A DNA stretch of 33,649 bases from a virus, in IMG/VR virus record IMGVR_UViG_3300046512_000193, positions 1 through 33,649 of that record; one strand, written 5' to 3'. Below are positions 27,371 through 33,020 of the stretch, piece by piece. Each line of letters opens with the position of its first letter. Position 1 is the stretch's first letter. Under the pieces are notes generated by a model. It was given only the letters and a program-made list of their open reading frames with translations, was not told the origin of the DNA and did not search any database. The position numbers were made by a program, and so were the translations under genes.

Positions 27371-27457
27371 CACATGGTTGTTCGATCACGCCACGTTTCT
27401 TTTCTCGGGCGTACCGTCGAGCTCCCGGGGGGGACCGATCAGAAAAGGAGCACCGGC

Positions 27458-27880
27458 ATGGCCCTTCAAGCGATTGCCTACGCCAGTGAGGCGGTCCTAG
27501 ACCTGGGACCGGATGGGCTCGAGCAATTAGCTCAGCGGTCCTTCGTCCGCAACCAGTTGGCGGGCGTCACAGGACTGCTGCTATTCGACGGCAGGCGGTT
27601 CCTTCAGTACATCGAGGGACCTGACGACGGCATGGCGGTCATCTACTCGCGCATCACCTATTCCCGCCAGCACACCGACCTGATTGAACTCGCGAGGGGC
27701 AGGGTAGCCCAGCGCCGTATGCCGTATTGGTCCATGCGGTTGATACCGGTGGAAGACACCCAGCTCAGGGAGGCTGCCTTCAGCGACTGGACGAGCCTGA
27801 CCCGGCGCGCGGTAGGGTCGCGGGCCTCGCCGACGGGAGTGGAACGGCTCGCCACCCTTGTGGCTCCTTACCTGGCTTAG
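27458..27880 (+). CDS. Short BLUF blue-light photoreceptor protein (140 aa)
   Basis: The ATG at 27,458 follows AAAAGGAG. Residues 1-95 match the BLUF (blue light using FAD) fold: IAYASEA with Tyr8, a helix ending FVRN with Asn32, GVTGLLLFDGRRFLQYIEGP with Gln50, and a YWSM segment with Trp91 and Met93. These positions equal those I remember as the flavin-switch residues of the short cyanobacterial PixD proteins. About 45 more residues form a helical cap and there is no effector domain. BLUF proteins sense blue light through FAD hydrogen bonding and pass the signal to partners by protein contact. It lies after the tail genes, in the accessory zone of the prophage; the partner is unknown. Confidence 0.9.
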   Translation: MALQAIAYASEAVLDLGPDGLEQLAQRSFVRNQLAGVTGLLLFDGRRFLQYIEGPDDGMAVIYSRITYSRQHTDLIELARGRVAQRRMPYWSMRLIPVEDTQLREAAFSDWTSLTRRAVGSRASPTGVERLATLVAPYLA

Positions 27881-28297: not shown

Positions 28298-28430
28298 TGG
28301 TCTGCGGGGTGACCCCAAACTGACCCCATGCACCAGCTAACCCACTGATTCCCAACGGACGCCGATGATCGCGGGTGATCCGCTGAGTCGTTGATTCTAT
28401 TGATCTTCCGCGACCTTGACATGGTCGGGG

Positions 28431-28907
28431 TCAATAACCACTTGGAGGGCCGACCGGGAAGCTCTGTGCCTGCGCGAAAAGTAGCCCAGGCCCCTTGAGA
28501 CGGTAGTCCGTACCGCCGTAGGCGTGCCGATCTCCGGCCCAGCCCATCTCGACCAGTTCCTCCATCGCGTGCCGAACATCTGCCCTCGGCGTGCCTGGGG
28601 GCAATCGTGCAACGATCATATCGGGGGTGACCCACTCGTAATCGTAGTAGCGAAGCGCCCGGATGCAATTGATCTGAAGCGAGGACGGCTCGAAGGGTGG
28701 TAGTGCGGCGACGGGCCTTTTAGGCTTCGGAACCGGCGGAGCTTCGACCGGCTTCGGCCTTGCAGAAGTCAGCGCTGCCCAGCCCTTGTTCAGCAGAACG
28801 CCAATCGTCACGCCGACCAAGAACGCCCACAAGAACTCCCAAGGGTGCTGTGCAATCAGTGGCCAGTTCTTCTGGAGGGTATCCAAGTCAGGCATTGCCG
28901 TATCCAT
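28431..28907 (-). CDS. Membrane-anchored winged-helix protein (158 aa)
   Basis: On the minus strand, against the phage late genes. Residues about 20-46 hold one membrane segment (PWEFLWAFLVGVTIGVLLNKG), followed by a Pro/Lys-rich linker (55-75) and a winged-helix-like domain at about 78-148 (INCIRALRYYDYEWVTPDMI, then RADVRHAMEELVEMGW and a YGGTDYRLKGPG wing). An ATG at 28,895 is an alternative start. A membrane tether plus winged helix on the opposite strand suggests lysogenic expression, perhaps superinfection exclusion or sensing, but no family is recognised. Confidence 0.65.
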   Translation of the reverse strand: MDTAMPDLDTLQKNWPLIAQHPWEFLWAFLVGVTIGVLLNKGWAALTSARPKPVEAPPVPKPKRPVAALPPFEPSSLQINCIRALRYYDYEWVTPDMIVARLPPGTPRADVRHAMEELVEMGWAGDRHAYGGTDYRLKGPGLLFAQAQSFPVGPPSGY

Positions 28908-29244
28908 ACGTGGTCGCGAGGTGATTCTGGCACATCTCCCAAACAGACAATTTTTCGCTCCGCAATCGAAAGAAGGCCAGTGAATTTGCCGGCAATAGCA
29001 GGTCCGACGTTGGTGCTATTGCGGAGCGAAATGTGGAGTTAAGTCATTGAGTATTGAAAAGCTCTGGAGCTTCCCAAGCTACTGCCGATCTTTGTGACTC
29101 GGGATCACTTCGGCGCCTTGGGCCACTCCTGGGGCGAGTAGAACTACTGAGCGCCCATTGGTAGAAGTTCGGGTGCCTGCGGCTACGTGTTGAGCTCTAC
29201 TGTCCATGGATGTTGGCGTCCGCCGGCAGCCTTCGGAGCGTGCT
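28908..29244. promoter_or_regulatory. Divergent intergenic region with competing inverted repeats
   Basis: This 337-base gap separates the minus-strand membrane protein from the plus-strand sulfatase and has no credible ORF. TTTCGCTCCGCAAT (28,953-28,966) is the exact inverse of ATTGCGGAGCGAAA (29,018-29,031). Inside, GCAATAGCA (28,992-29,000) pairs with TGCTATTGC (29,014-29,022), which overlaps the right arm. The two stems exclude each other, as in attenuators. A smaller AAGCT-CTGG-AGCTT palindrome lies near 29,058. The sulfatase start is preceded by GGAG. Confidence 0.55.
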
Positions 29245-30786
29245 ATGACTAACGAGGAAAAGCCGAACATCGTCATGATCATGGCGGACGACGTTGGTAT
29301 TTGGAACATCAGTGCTTACCATCGAGGCATGATGGGTGGTAGCACGCCGAACATAGACAGGTTGGCGCGCGAGGGTGCTCTCTTCACTGACTACTACGGG
29401 CAGCAGTCCTGCACAGCGGGTAGGGCGGCCTTCATCACTGGGCAGACGCCATTCCGGACCGGCCTTCTTAAAGTGGGCCTGCCGGCTGCCAAGCAGGGCC
29501 TGCAAGATACCGATCCAACGATCGCAGAAATCCTAAAGCCGTTGGGGTACGCCACGGCCCAGATCGGCAAGAACCATCTGGGTGATCGCAATGAGTATCT
29601 ACCCACGGTGCACGGTTTCGACGAGTTCCACGGGATCCTCTATCACCTTAATGCGATGGAAGAGCCCTACGACCCGGAGTATCCGAAGGAGGCGAGCTTC
29701 CGAGGGAAGTTCGGTCCACGCAACATCATCCACAGTGTGGCAACAGATGAGGACGATGCTACCGAGGATGCGCGCTGGGGGCGGGTGGGCAGGCAGACGA
29801 TCACCGATGCTGGTCCATTGCCGCCGCATCCGGGCATGGATGAGGCTGCCACAGTTAGCATGGAGGATATCGACGCCGACCTGGTTAAGCGCTCCTGCGC
29901 ATTCATCGAGCGATCGGTCAGCGCGGGCCAGCCGTTCTTCTTGTGGCATAACTCCACGCGCTGCCATTCCTGGACGCATTTGTCCAAAGCGTGGGACGGC
30001 AAAACTGGATTTGGCCTCTTTGCCGATGCCATGGCTGAACTGGATTGGATAGTGGGTGAGTTGCTGGCCAAGCTGGATGCGCTGGGGGTTGCCGACAACA
30101 CGGTGGTGCTGTTCACCAGCGACAACGGCGCCGAGATATTCAGCTGGCCCGACGGCGGCAACCATCCGTTCCGGGGCGAAAAGGGGACCGTGTACGAGGG
30201 CGGCTTCCGGGTGCCAATGCTGGCGCGCTGGCCCGGTGTGATCCAGCCCGGGGTCATCATCAACGAGATCATGTCAGCTGAGGACTGGATGCCGACCTTG
30301 GTCGCCGCCGCCGGCGAGCCTGCCCTGAAGGAAAAGCTGCTGGACGGATACCAGGCCGGCACAAAGCACTTCAGGAACCACCTTGACGGCTACAACTTCA
30401 AGCCGTTTTTCGAAGGCAACGAGGCGCAGAGTCCGCGCCGCGAGTTCTTCTATTTCAGCGACAACGCCGATCTGATGGCGGTGCGCTACAACCAGTGGAA
30501 GATCACCTTCAAGACGATCGTCGGAAATCTGTTTAGTGGCAAGGAAGATTCCACCAACGTACCGCTGGTGACGAACTTGCGTGTAGACCCGTGGGAGCGC
30601 TACCAGACCGAGTCGACATCGTACGGGCAATGGTGGGGTGAGAAACTCTGGGTGATGATGCCAGCAACAGGCATCGTCGGTACGTTCTTGGCGACCTTCA
30701 AAGACTATCCGCCCAGCCAAGTCTCGGGATCGTTGAGCGTGGATAAGGCGCTGCAGGCACTCGAAGAAGGCGGGCGAAAAAATTGA
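29245..30786 (+). CDS. Cys-type sulfatase (arylsulfatase family) in prophage cargo
   Basis: The ATG at 29,245 follows GGAGCGTGCT; an upstream ATG at 29,206 lacks such a site. The 513-residue product has NIVMIMADDVG (Asp15/Asp16 metal ligands), the sulfatase signature SCTAGR with Cys56 as the residue converted to formylglycine, GKNHLG (Lys109, His111), SDNGAE (Asp293, Asn294) and EKGTVYEGGFRVP. All active-site blocks are present, so a working sulfate-ester hydrolase is likely once modified. No signal peptide is seen, so it may act in the cytoplasm. No formylglycine-generating enzyme is in the window. It is not a known phage function, so it is cargo; its substrate is unknown. Confidence 0.9.
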   Translation: MTNEEKPNIVMIMADDVGIWNISAYHRGMMGGSTPNIDRLAREGALFTDYYGQQSCTAGRAAFITGQTPFRTGLLKVGLPAAKQGLQDTDPTIAEILKPLGYATAQIGKNHLGDRNEYLPTVHGFDEFHGILYHLNAMEEPYDPEYPKEASFRGKFGPRNIIHSVATDEDDATEDARWGRVGRQTITDAGPLPPHPGMDEAATVSMEDIDADLVKRSCAFIERSVSAGQPFFLWHNSTRCHSWTHLSKAWDGKTGFGLFADAMAELDWIVGELLAKLDALGVADNTVVLFTSDNGAEIFSWPDGGNHPFRGEKGTVYEGGFRVPMLARWPGVIQPGVIINEIMSAEDWMPTLVAAAGEPALKEKLLDGYQAGTKHFRNHLDGYNFKPFFEGNEAQSPRREFFYFSDNADLMAVRYNQWKITFKTIVGNLFSGKEDSTNVPLVTNLRVDPWERYQTESTSYGQWWGEKLWVMMPATGIVGTFLATFKDYPPSQVSGSLSVDKALQALEEGGRKN

Positions 30787-30836: not shown

Positions 30837-30919
30837 CCCCTTTCGCAAGCGGGTCAAGTAATCAACTCCTGCATCATCCGCACCCGCTCCGCAACGTGCG
30901 GCTTCGCGTGGAAACGCAT
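30837..30919 (-). pseudogene. Frameshifted relic of a second integrase C-terminus
   Basis: On the minus strand the reading VAERVRMMQE, then after a frame change VDYLTRLRKG, aligns with the intact integrase end LAERTRMMQE-WADYLDRLRTG. The DNA ACTCCTGCATCATCCGC at 30,865-30,881 is identical to 31,311-31,327 inside the integrase gene. A gap of 4 bases relative to the integrase explains the frame change, and the position of the catalytic Tyr reads Phe. I see no further integrase similarity upstream, so this is a short tail of an older, related integrase. Confidence 0.7.
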
Positions 30920-31060: not shown

Positions 31061-31255
31061 GTAAGGCGCTGGGCGCGCGCACGGGCGGCTTCGTTATGGC
31101 AGCAGGCCGATGCCTTGGACATCGATCTAAGCGGCGACTGGCGCGCTCGGGTGCGGCGGGGAAGGGGAGCGGCGCGACTCCGTACCGATGCTGCCAAGTT
31201 CGACAGCATCGCCAACCGCCTTGAGTCCTTCTGGGACGATCAGGCAGCAGCCTGA
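31061..31255 (+). pseudogene. Orphan coding-like remnant, convergent with integrase
   Basis: A frame opened by a TAG at 31,058-31,060 reads ARAASLWQQADALDIDLSGD and later TDAAKFDSIANRLESFWDDQ before its TGA at 31,253-31,255. The composition is that of a real protein, but there is no ATG or ribosome site, so the 5' part seems lost. Its last 16 bases overlap the integrase 3' end from the other strand. No family is recognised. The rest of 30,787-31,060, apart from the integrase relic, shows no credible gene. Confidence 0.35.
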
Positions 31256-32457
31256 CCAGCCCGTAACGGCACCACGTTGCCGGTGCGCAGCCGGTCCAGG
31301 TAGTCCGCCCACTCCTGCATCATCCGCGTCCGCTCCGCCAAGTGCGTGGTGCGGTTATACGCGCGCCCGTTCGGATCCTTCACCGCGTGCGCGAGCTGGT
31401 GCTCGATGATGTCCGGGCGGAAACACAGCACTTCATCCAGCAGGGTGCGCGCGGTCGCGCGGAATCCGTGACCGGTGACGGTGTCCTTGTCGAACCCCAT
31501 GACACGGAGGGCAGCCAATACGGCAACCTCGGACATCGGCCGCTTCTCGCTGCGGCCGCCGGGGAATACGTATTTTCCCTGACCAGTCCAAGCATGGAGC
31601 TCTCGAAGAACTTCCACCGCCTGCCGAGCCAGGGGCACGATGTGTGCCTGCCGCATCTTCATGCGCGCGGCCGGGATGCTCCACAGGCCGGCATCCAGAT
31701 CCACCTCCGCCCATTCCGCCTGGCGCAGCTCGCCGGGCCGGACGAACACCATCGGTGCTAGCTTCAGCGCGGCCTGCACGGGCGGGGTGCCGTGGTAGGC
31801 GTGCAGGGCACGCAGCAGGCCACCCAGCTGGACTGGATCCACCACCGCGGCATGGTTCTTCTCAGGGGGCGGGATCAGTGCGCCGCGCAGGTCGGCGACA
31901 GGGTTGCGTTCCGCTCGGTCAGTGGCCACGGCGTACCGCATCACCTGGCCGCAGTTCTGCATGATCCGATGAGCCGACTCGAAAGCGTCCCGGGCCTCCA
32001 TCCGGCGGGCGACCTGCAGGAAGTCCGACGCCTTGAGCTCTGCGGCGCGCCGTGAACCCACGAAGGGGAACACGTCCTTCTCGAACCAGGCCTCGACCTT
32101 CTTCTGGTAGCCCGGCACCCAAGGGCGACCGGCCAGCCACTCGCGCGCGATCACTTCGAAGCTCTCGACGAGGTCGGCGGCCTTCGTGGCAGCTGCGGCC
32201 TTGCGCTGCTCGCTGGGATCTACGCCGCTGGCCAGCAGCCGCCGAGCATCTTCCCTGGCCTCCCGCGCCATGGCCAGGCTCACGTCGGGGTACAGGCCGA
32301 GGGTCAGCAGCTTCTCCCTGCCGGCGACGCGGTATTTCCAGCGCCAGCTCTTGGCGCCAGCAACGGTGATGAGGAGAAACAGGCCGCCGCCGTCAGCAAG
32401 CTTCTGAGGCTTGACGGCAGGCTTGGCGCGACGAATGGCAGCGTCGGTCAGGGGCAT
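31240..32457 (-). CDS. int: P4-type tyrosine integrase
   Basis: The 405-residue product opens MPLTDAAIRRAKP with LADGGGLFLLI (the DUF4102 arm-binding domain), has a SAM-like core-binding domain at about 100-185 and a catalytic domain with Arg240 (VRPGELRQAEW), HGFR (His330, Arg333), HQLAH (His353) and the nucleophile Tyr367 (AYNR). It cuts and joins attP and attB. Its 5' end faces the ssrA 3' end 160 bases away, as is usual for P4-type integrases that use tRNA or tmRNA genes. The repeats upstream are probable binding sites. The gene looks intact. Confidence 0.97.
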   Translation of the reverse strand: MPLTDAAIRRAKPAVKPQKLADGGGLFLLITVAGAKSWRWKYRVAGREKLLTLGLYPDVSLAMAREAREDARRLLASGVDPSEQRKAAAATKAADLVESFEVIAREWLAGRPWVPGYQKKVEAWFEKDVFPFVGSRRAAELKASDFLQVARRMEARDAFESAHRIMQNCGQVMRYAVATDRAERNPVADLRGALIPPPEKNHAAVVDPVQLGGLLRALHAYHGTPPVQAALKLAPMVFVRPGELRQAEWAEVDLDAGLWSIPAARMKMRQAHIVPLARQAVEVLRELHAWTGQGKYVFPGGRSEKRPMSEVAVLAALRVMGFDKDTVTGHGFRATARTLLDEVLCFRPDIIEHQLAHAVKDPNGRAYNRTTHLAERTRMMQEWADYLDRLRTGNVVPLRAGQAAA

Positions 32458-32553
32458 GGGGGTATCGGGTTTTCGGGGAGGGCGGATACCCCTAGATATA
32501 CCCCCACCGTCTCATGGGCTGCAACGGAATACCCCGGACAGCCCCGGACAACA
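32458..32553. promoter_or_regulatory. Integrase upstream region with arm-type repeats
   Basis: GGGGTATC (32,459-32,466) is inverted as GATACCCC (32,485-32,492), and another ATACCCCC lies at 32,498-32,505, giving three GGGGTAT-type units just before the integrase start. Downstream, CCCCGGACA occurs twice in tandem (32,532-32,540 and 32,542-32,550). Such short repeats between integrase and att are typical binding sites for integrase arms or excisionase, and may also control the integrase promoter. No direct proof is possible here. Confidence 0.45.
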
Positions 32554-32610: not shown

Positions 32611-32640
32611 ACCGTCTAATGGTGGAGGTGGGCGGAATTG
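32611..32640. other. Probable prophage attachment core at ssrA 3' end
   Basis: The prophage integrase gene stops short of the tmRNA 3' end, whose T-arm and CCA end (32,620-32,645) are typical targets. A near copy of ACCGTCTAATGG (32,611-32,622) occurs at 32,506-32,517 with one mismatch. The second att copy would be left of the window, so the core cannot be defined here. Confidence 0.4.
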
Positions 32641-33020
32641 AACCGCCGTCCGAAGGCACTCCATCCCCGGTACTACATGCTTAGCTCACCGTTGAATCTC
32701 GCCCTGTGGCAGCACGGTGTGCAAAGCGCACCCCAGGACCAGCCTGCTTTAGTTAAGCCGTGACTGACAGGCAGCCATCACAGCCGGTTCCGTGATAATG
32801 ACCCTACATCTACGAGCACGGGCACAAGTAGGTTCGGGGGTTCGCCTAAGGCGGCTGTAGAACTTAACGCACTTGCTGCTGTTTAGGCGGCGAGGCGGAA
32901 GTCCGAACCGTAGTTGTCGTCGTTGGCAACTAAAAGTTTGCTGCTGGATTTACGAGGAAAGCTGCCCCCTCGGCATGCACCAAGTAACTTCACAACCCCC
33001 GTCGAAACCAATGCACCCCC
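32620..33020 (-). ncRNA. ssrA: tmRNA
   Basis: On the minus strand the RNA starts GGGGGTGCATTGGTTTCGAC and ends CACCTCCACCA with CCA encoded. The 5' GGGGGTG pairs with the 3' CACCTCC as the tRNA-like acceptor stem, and a TTCAATTC T-loop precedes it. The tag frame at 32,883-32,927 begins at GCC and encodes ANDDNYGSDFRLAA then TAA. tmRNA rescues stalled ribosomes and tags the products for ClpXP. It is a host gene; its 3' end seems to be the phage integration site. Confidence 0.98.
32883..32927 (-). other. tmRNA tag-peptide reading frame
   Basis: Resume codon GCC (32,925-32,927 on minus), then AAC GAC GAC AAC TAC and so on to TAA (32,883-32,885). The encoded tag ANDDNYGSDFRLAA ends in the LAA needed for protease recognition; ANDDNYGSDF is typical of xanthomonads from memory. 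Confidence 0.93.

Follow-up and report, generated by a model that had tools for sequence, protein, structure and literature searches.

A perfect 14-bp inverted repeat in the window, the whole 33,649-nt stretch of DNA analysed here (IMGVR_UViG_3300046512_000193), is very probably the P arm of a lambda-type phage attachment site (attP), made up of predicted integrase arm-type sites, and not an RNA switch. The window, a viral record, represents a tailed prophage that carries terminase and tail genes, and the repeat recurs with constant spacing and unrelated loops in dozens of beta- and gammaproteobacterial prophages. Comparison of these loci makes the identification of an attachment-site arm near certain.

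The repeat region in the window

The repeat lies between a winged-helix-like gene and a sulfatase gene that diverge from each other, as an earlier note on this DNA had said. That note had also described a 14-bp repeat with a 51-base spacer and a 9-bp inner hairpin whose right arm overlaps the outer one, and all of these were found exactly in place. The outer arms (28953-28966 and 29018-29031) pair at 14 of 14 positions with 51 nt between them, and the inner arms (28992-29000, GCAATAGCA, and 29014-29022, TGCTATTGC) at 9 of 9 with 13 nt between. The claim that only one of the two stems can form was overstated, because they share only 5 nt (29018-29022); the minimum-energy fold of the minus strand holds most of both. 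About 0.08 perfect inverted repeats of at least 14 bp with a spacer of 20-100 nt are expected by chance in a window of the same composition. Taken alone the outer repeat is only mildly surprising; what rules out a chance origin is that it turns up in other loci at a single, exact spacing. The repeat and its neighbours are laid out as follows:

28431-28907, minus strand: gene for a winged-helix-like, membrane-anchored protein, with 45 bp between its start codon and the distal arm
28953-28966, plus strand: predicted distal arm-type site (P1-like), TTTCGCTCCGCAAT, with the conserved part CGCTCCGCAAT at 28956-28966
28967-29017, plus strand: spacer of 51 nt, unrelated across loci except for GGC at 28991-28993
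29018-29031, plus strand: predicted proximal arm-type site (P2-like), ATTGCGGAGCGAAA, with the conserved part ATTGCGGAGCG at 29018-29028
29040-29052, minus strand: IHF-like site, ACTCAATGACTTA, one mismatch to WATCAANNNNTTR
29066-29084, plus strand: predicted crossover core, the 19-bp tRNA-Gly(CCC) anticodon arm GGAGCTTCCCAAGCTACTG, matching the tRNA-Gly(CCC) of Stenotrophomonas genomes
29206-30786, plus strand: sulfatase cargo gene (PF00884, E 1.1e-51), outside the Gly core
31240-32457, minus strand: present integrase gene, with Arm-DNA-bind_3 and Phage_integrase domains
32620-33020, minus strand: tmRNA, the sole Rfam match in the window

The outer repeat consists of two inverted copies of TTGCGGAGCG with a start-to-start distance of 62 bp, and the mid-loop GGC of its spacer is enclosed by a palindrome, TTGCCGGCAA, at 28986-28995. 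An attP arm would be expected to have a core identical to its host target and a bending site between the arms and that core; both are found in the window, the core over 19 bp of the tRNA anticodon arm and the bending site with its single mismatch. The winged-helix-like protein had no match in Pfam, PHROG or NCBIfam. Two further features of the window were noted. A gene for a BLUF blue-light sensor (27374-27880; PF04940, E 1.9e-18), unusual as prophage cargo, directly follows the tail fibre genes. Beside the sulfatase gene, a 36-bp direct repeat (89%; 30865-30900 and 31311-31346) repeats a segment of the integrase gene's 3' end, a remnant of a former copy of that gene.

The repeat in other prophages

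We searched genome and viral collections with the pattern GCTCCGCAA-N-TTGCGGAGC, leaving the gap free between 43 and 63, and obtained 31 genome loci and at least 80 viral loci. The gap was 53 nt in 65 of the 111 pattern matches listed and 52, 54 or 55 nt in 24, the remainder being scattered. Most loci were picked by the arm sequence itself, and the invariance of the arms among them is partly selection; that selection does not account for the exact spacing, the linkage to integrases, the direct pairs, the IHF register or the cores. Hosts with the repeat include Stenotrophomonas, Collimonas, Herbaspirillum, Paraburkholderia, Methylotenera, Xylophilus and Polaromonas. Among the loci listed, 44 non-redundant ones were aligned and oriented, and they have in common the arms, the mid-loop GGC and an A/T-rich edge, a subset also carrying a site that fits WATCAANNNNTTR outside the proximal arm. 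The distal arm is invariant in this alignment, where selection was on these same 9 bases, and it is invariant too in L003, a locus found by protein rather than by pattern, in which 28308-29085 of the window is kept at 86% identity. Loop positions 34-36 are GGC at 82, 77 and 64% in the same 44 loci, and the rest of the loop is not conserved. An IHF-like site stands at one register in 27 of 136 outer flanks of the loci listed, compared with 3.4 +/- 1.6 in shuffles, and only these 27 flanks satisfy the strict consensus. Within the loop we observed one IHF site where 1.8 were expected, leaving the GGC as the sole remaining loop feature.

The core sequence GGAGCTTCCCAAGCTACTG is conserved just to the right of the repeat and led to two further loci, L011 and L013, in which the repeat has an unrelated loop and the 3' half of tRNA-Gly(CCC) comes next. 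The arm starts are exactly 62 bp apart in the window, L003, L011 and L013, and the distance from the end of the inverted repeat to the Gly core is 38-41 bp in all 17 Gly-type loci among those listed. At other loci the core, at a similar distance, is the anticodon arm of a differing tRNA (read as Gly, Leu, Lys, Arg, Cys and Met). In 33 of the loci listed, a gene for a lambda-Int-like tyrosine integrase lies less than 200 bp from the inverted repeat, always with its 3' end towards it. A cognate integrase with a predicted arm-binding domain thus accompanies the site in the family, though not in cis in the window. The distance is mostly 2-17 bp and otherwise about 150-190 bp, and in most loci of the latter kind a direct pair and the core intervene. 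This gives two layouts, integrase - inverted repeat - tRNA core and integrase - direct pair TTGCGGAGC-N10-TTGCGGAGC - tRNA core - inverted repeat; 13 of the loci listed have exact direct pairs, with a period of 19 bp. A profile of these integrases matches lambda Int over its full length from profile position 2, N-terminal domain included (E 1.1e-25), and matches the structures 1Z1B, 1Z1G and 5J0N (E about 1e-25). Integrase identity within the TTGCGGAGCG group is 0.58 for the N-terminal domain and 0.51 for the C-terminal part, against 0.41 and 0.41 to other integrases. The idea that the N-terminal domain tracks the arm sequence was set aside as weakly supported by the difference within the group.

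A complete integrated example is provided by Stenotrophomonas sepilia SM16975 (G012, contig C72), where a 40.5-kb prophage lies between two identical 48-bp tRNA-Gly(CCC) repeats. Its attL consists of the integrase stop codon, a direct pair of TTGCGGAGCG with a 19-bp period and the complete tRNA-Gly(CCC), and its attR of the tRNA-Gly 3' half, the core, an IHF-like site and an inverted repeat matching that of the window. From the layout of these ends, the inverted repeat is therefore one arm of the attP and the direct pair the other. In S. sepilia and in 13 of the loci listed, short sites flank the core on either side, while the window retains the inverted-repeat side only. Another genome, G005, has the inverted repeat and tRNA-Gly at one end, with no direct pair after its integrase.

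The arms, their spacing, the IHF register, the core, the integrase linkage and the integrated example, all seen in these sequences, point to a way in which the half-site may work. We infer that protein binding, bending and bridging would take place there in the following manner. The N-terminal arm-binding domain of a lambda-Int-like integrase would bind the two inverted TTGCGGAGCG sites, 62 bp or about six helical turns apart; the IHF-like bend site, which lies some 10 bp beyond the proximal arm on its outer side, would fold the P arm back; and the folded arm would let integrase subunits bridge to the crossover core in the tRNA-Gly(CCC) anticodon arm (29066-29084). The direct pair, TTGCGGAGCG-N9/10-TTGCGGAGCG with a 19-bp period, would form the other arm of the complete attP.

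Several single loci deserve mention in their own right. In L013 (9205-9283) the inverted repeat makes the 3' end of another cargo gene, whose protein ends ...AIAERK before the stop, and further along lies a gene that we take from its translated sequence to be rimK. In L115 (265-325 and 457) the repeat has a gap of 43 nt, one helical turn shorter, and is accompanied by an exact direct pair, which makes it a natural phasing variant. L056 (JAHXDM010000007.1) is filed as a Rickettsia endosymbiont contig and carries an att repeat nearly identical to those of the Stenotrophomonas loci L033 and L055; the assignment is probably a binning error. Finally, the winged-helix gene was seen only beside inverted repeats whose core lacks the tRNA-Gly 3' half (window, L003, L030 and L106/L117), with 38-45 bp between its start codon and the distal arm.

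Alternative readings and the state of the half-site

One geometry that the earlier note had named is that of an attenuator or anti-antiterminator. In such a reading, alternative leader stems would decide the expression of the sulfatase or the winged-helix gene. The region does lie between divergent genes and folds stably on both strands (z -2.5 and -3.7), but any 14-bp inverted repeat scores well. A stem of at least 9 bp overlapping an arm was found in 1 of the 69 loci listed (0.2 in shuffled loops), and that one is the window; a mismatch breaks it in L003. Since among these loci the inner stem occurs in the window alone and loop structure is not conserved, the loops being unrelated at fixed spacing, comparison across relatives yields no conserved alternative stems. 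Relatives, where the repeat lies immediately past an integrase stop codon or within the 3' end of a different gene, already contradict an RNA switch, and we consider it highly improbable. According to the note, neither a simple terminator nor a known riboswitch explains the repeats. In the terminator scan no candidate uses the repeat, the only hit being at 28976-28993 on the minus strand, a 5-bp stem that is weak and unrelated to it, and the Rfam scan of the window returned no family there. Its other suggestion, a two-site operator with a loop, captured the paired inverted sites and the loop geometry. Their function is very probably not transcriptional, these being predicted integrase arm-type sites beside a tRNA-derived core. 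Autoregulation by the winged-helix protein bound to both arms could account for the fact that, in three lineages (window/L003, L030 and L106/L117), its gene starts at a similar distance from the distal arm. Most loci, however, have other cargo or an integrase at the inverted repeat in place of that gene, and the arms match the direct pair across the core, where the gene is not needed, so that such an operator is very unlikely, even though the arms could have been co-opted as one. Conservation of the arms divides between the flanking genes: they are kept in relatives with the winged-helix gene (L003, L030 and L106/L117) and not beside the sulfatase, a 92% identical copy of which stands in L005 with no inverted-repeat module. 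Outer inverted repeats flanking a short non-coding stretch would also suit a miniature transposon; its chances are negligible, as the interiors are unrelated, the length is fixed and so are the distances to the tRNA core and integrase, which already contradicts it. Substitutions between the window and L003 at 28983-29025 have a period of three, with short conserved peptides on both strands. A coding reading was nevertheless rejected as a general explanation, the loops being unrelated in other loci, though the inverted repeat of L013 does end a gene.

With the repeat taken as an attachment-site arm, its relation to the present integration system can be considered. The features that bear on this are:

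28310-28433, plus strand: second inner att-like half-site, with a TGACCCC pair, an IHF-like TAACCCACTGATT at 28338-28350 and a tRNA-Val(GAC)-like anticodon arm at about 28413-28433
32458-32505, plus strand: probable arm sites of the present tmRNA system, an inverted pair of GGGGGTA (32458-32464) and TACCCCC (32499-32505)
32618-32633, plus strand: present att core, AATGGTGGAGGTGGGC, the tmRNA 3' end, with a second copy 42,466 bp away

An identical twin contig of the window (L002/L004; 42,962 bp) carries a second copy of the tmRNA 3' end at the far end of the prophage, together with an excisionase-like gene. This repeat at 42,466 bp indicates that a prophage of about 42.5 kb now sits in the tmRNA gene through the integrase at 31240-32457. 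The opposite end carries a direct pair of TACCCCC, and the GGGGGTA/TACCCCC repeats are probably the arm sites of the present system. A prophage bounded by the Gly core was rejected, as the left extension of the twin contig holds the tmRNA repeat and no second Gly core. In L023 (10434-10961), the start of an integrase-like gene (DUF6538) lies just outside the left tmRNA att copy and runs off the contig end, near which there is a doubtful poly-G stretch.

The Gly half-site is internal and unaccompanied, because the sole integrase, the single PF00589 match above cut-off in the twin contig, is of a different type from those linked to the inverted repeat, no TTGCGGAGC direct pair was found in the window, and the prophage ends at tmRNA. 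Most likely it is a leftover, or relic, of an integration system that preceded the present one, and a prophage carrying a cognate integrase could perhaps still use it in trans. A stronger version, competing with the relic part of our reading alone and not with the identification of the arm, would have it still active, a functional site that other prophages in the same cell, if they encode the cognate integrase, would use in trans, such as for tandem integration. Arms, spacing, IHF-like site and core are intact in the window despite diverged loops, and the arms are intact in L106/L117, which were found via the winged-helix protein rather than the repeat. Against this, the tRNA 3' half and direct pair are missing, no cognate integrase is present in cis and L003 has a substitution in one arm, and on balance we think continued activity unlikely, if a serious competitor.

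Beyond the probable relic itself, the prophage ends contain further cores. The block at 28310-28433 is about 80% identical in L011 and L013 and aligns with a tRNA-Val gene, confirmed as tRNA-Val(GAC); its Val-like arm lies inward of the Gly half-site in the window, L003, L011 and L013. In L003, L030, L100 and L106/L117, TTTGGCACA-like repeats follow the Gly core without a break, along with a core from tRNA-Arg(CCT); in L030 an integrase of the window's type and tmRNA come after these. The inside-to-outside order Val - Gly - Arg - tmRNA, seen in few lineages, suggests successive systems that left half-sites behind. We propose tentatively, giving it slightly less than even chances, that the ends of prophages in this group preserve, layer upon layer, a history of integration switches in a repeatable order, with cargo trapped between them and retained arms that could aid moving or stacking. 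If so, a new integrase would take over outside the old half-site, catching the winged-helix gene and sulfatase between, and several integrases per cell could move or stack prophages through the retained arms. Layered half-sites, if general, would show how phages change integration site and acquire cargo.

A half-site of this kind is ordinary; the noteworthy part is the common arm across many target tRNAs together with the layered half-sites. The 62-bp inverted pair and the 19-22 bp direct pair around a tRNA core form a searchable attP signature of a large group of lambda-Int-like prophages, from which arm sequence, target tRNA and prophage ends can be read. A constant arm sequence facing about six target tRNAs offers a natural test of the separation of arm and core specificity.

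Known phages and attachment systems

A nucleotide search of deposited phages with the repeat region gave no match. Seven phages (F10, KL3, Carl1, PseuP_222, AUS531phi, Mannheimia 587AP2 and Pacha_bin_1) have integrases 37-41% identical to that of G005 and direct pairs with a 20-22 bp period near the integrase stop codons, in PseuP_222 beyond the tRNA. F10, Carl1, PseuP_222 and Mannheimia 587AP2 have an inverted pair as well, displaced by about 61-67 bp, and KL3, AUS531phi and Pacha_bin_1 the direct pair only; a comparable layout was not seen after the integrase of Vaitephage. Arm sequences vary between these phages and agree within one phage, the arms here being TTGCGGAAA, ATTGGAAACG, TAATGGAACG and TTTCGGAACG in contrast to the family's TTGCGGAGCG. 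Burkholderia phage KL3 inserts in the middle of a tRNA-Thr gene, and the cited part of that report gives no description of its arm sites (PMC3091744). In Xylella, fragments of tRNA-Val, Asn and Lys and a tRNA-Gly are associated with or inside prophages and were termed probable insertion relics; arm sites or ordered stacks are not described in the part of that work drawn on here (PMC2605562). The tyrosine integrases IntS of KplE1 and IntS of ICEMlSym(R7A), both of them subjects of experiments, have several short arm-type sites around a core (PMC2951348, PMC11963761). The arm sequences and arrangements of these att regions are unlike those of the family.

Among the closest parallels is lambda, whose P arm has the exact order P1-H1-P2-H2. 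Unlike lambda, the family has a different arm sequence, a core that is a tRNA anticodon arm, a strict IHF consensus only between the inverted repeat and the core, and no identified Xis sites. Lambda attP combines a P arm (P1, P2 and the IHF sites H1 and H2) with a P' arm (H', P'1 and P'2), and the family's succession of arm site, spacer, second arm site, IHF site, core and tandem pair of arm sites matches this layout (PMC4880445); lambda Int is a relative of the family integrase over its full length, arm-binding domain included.
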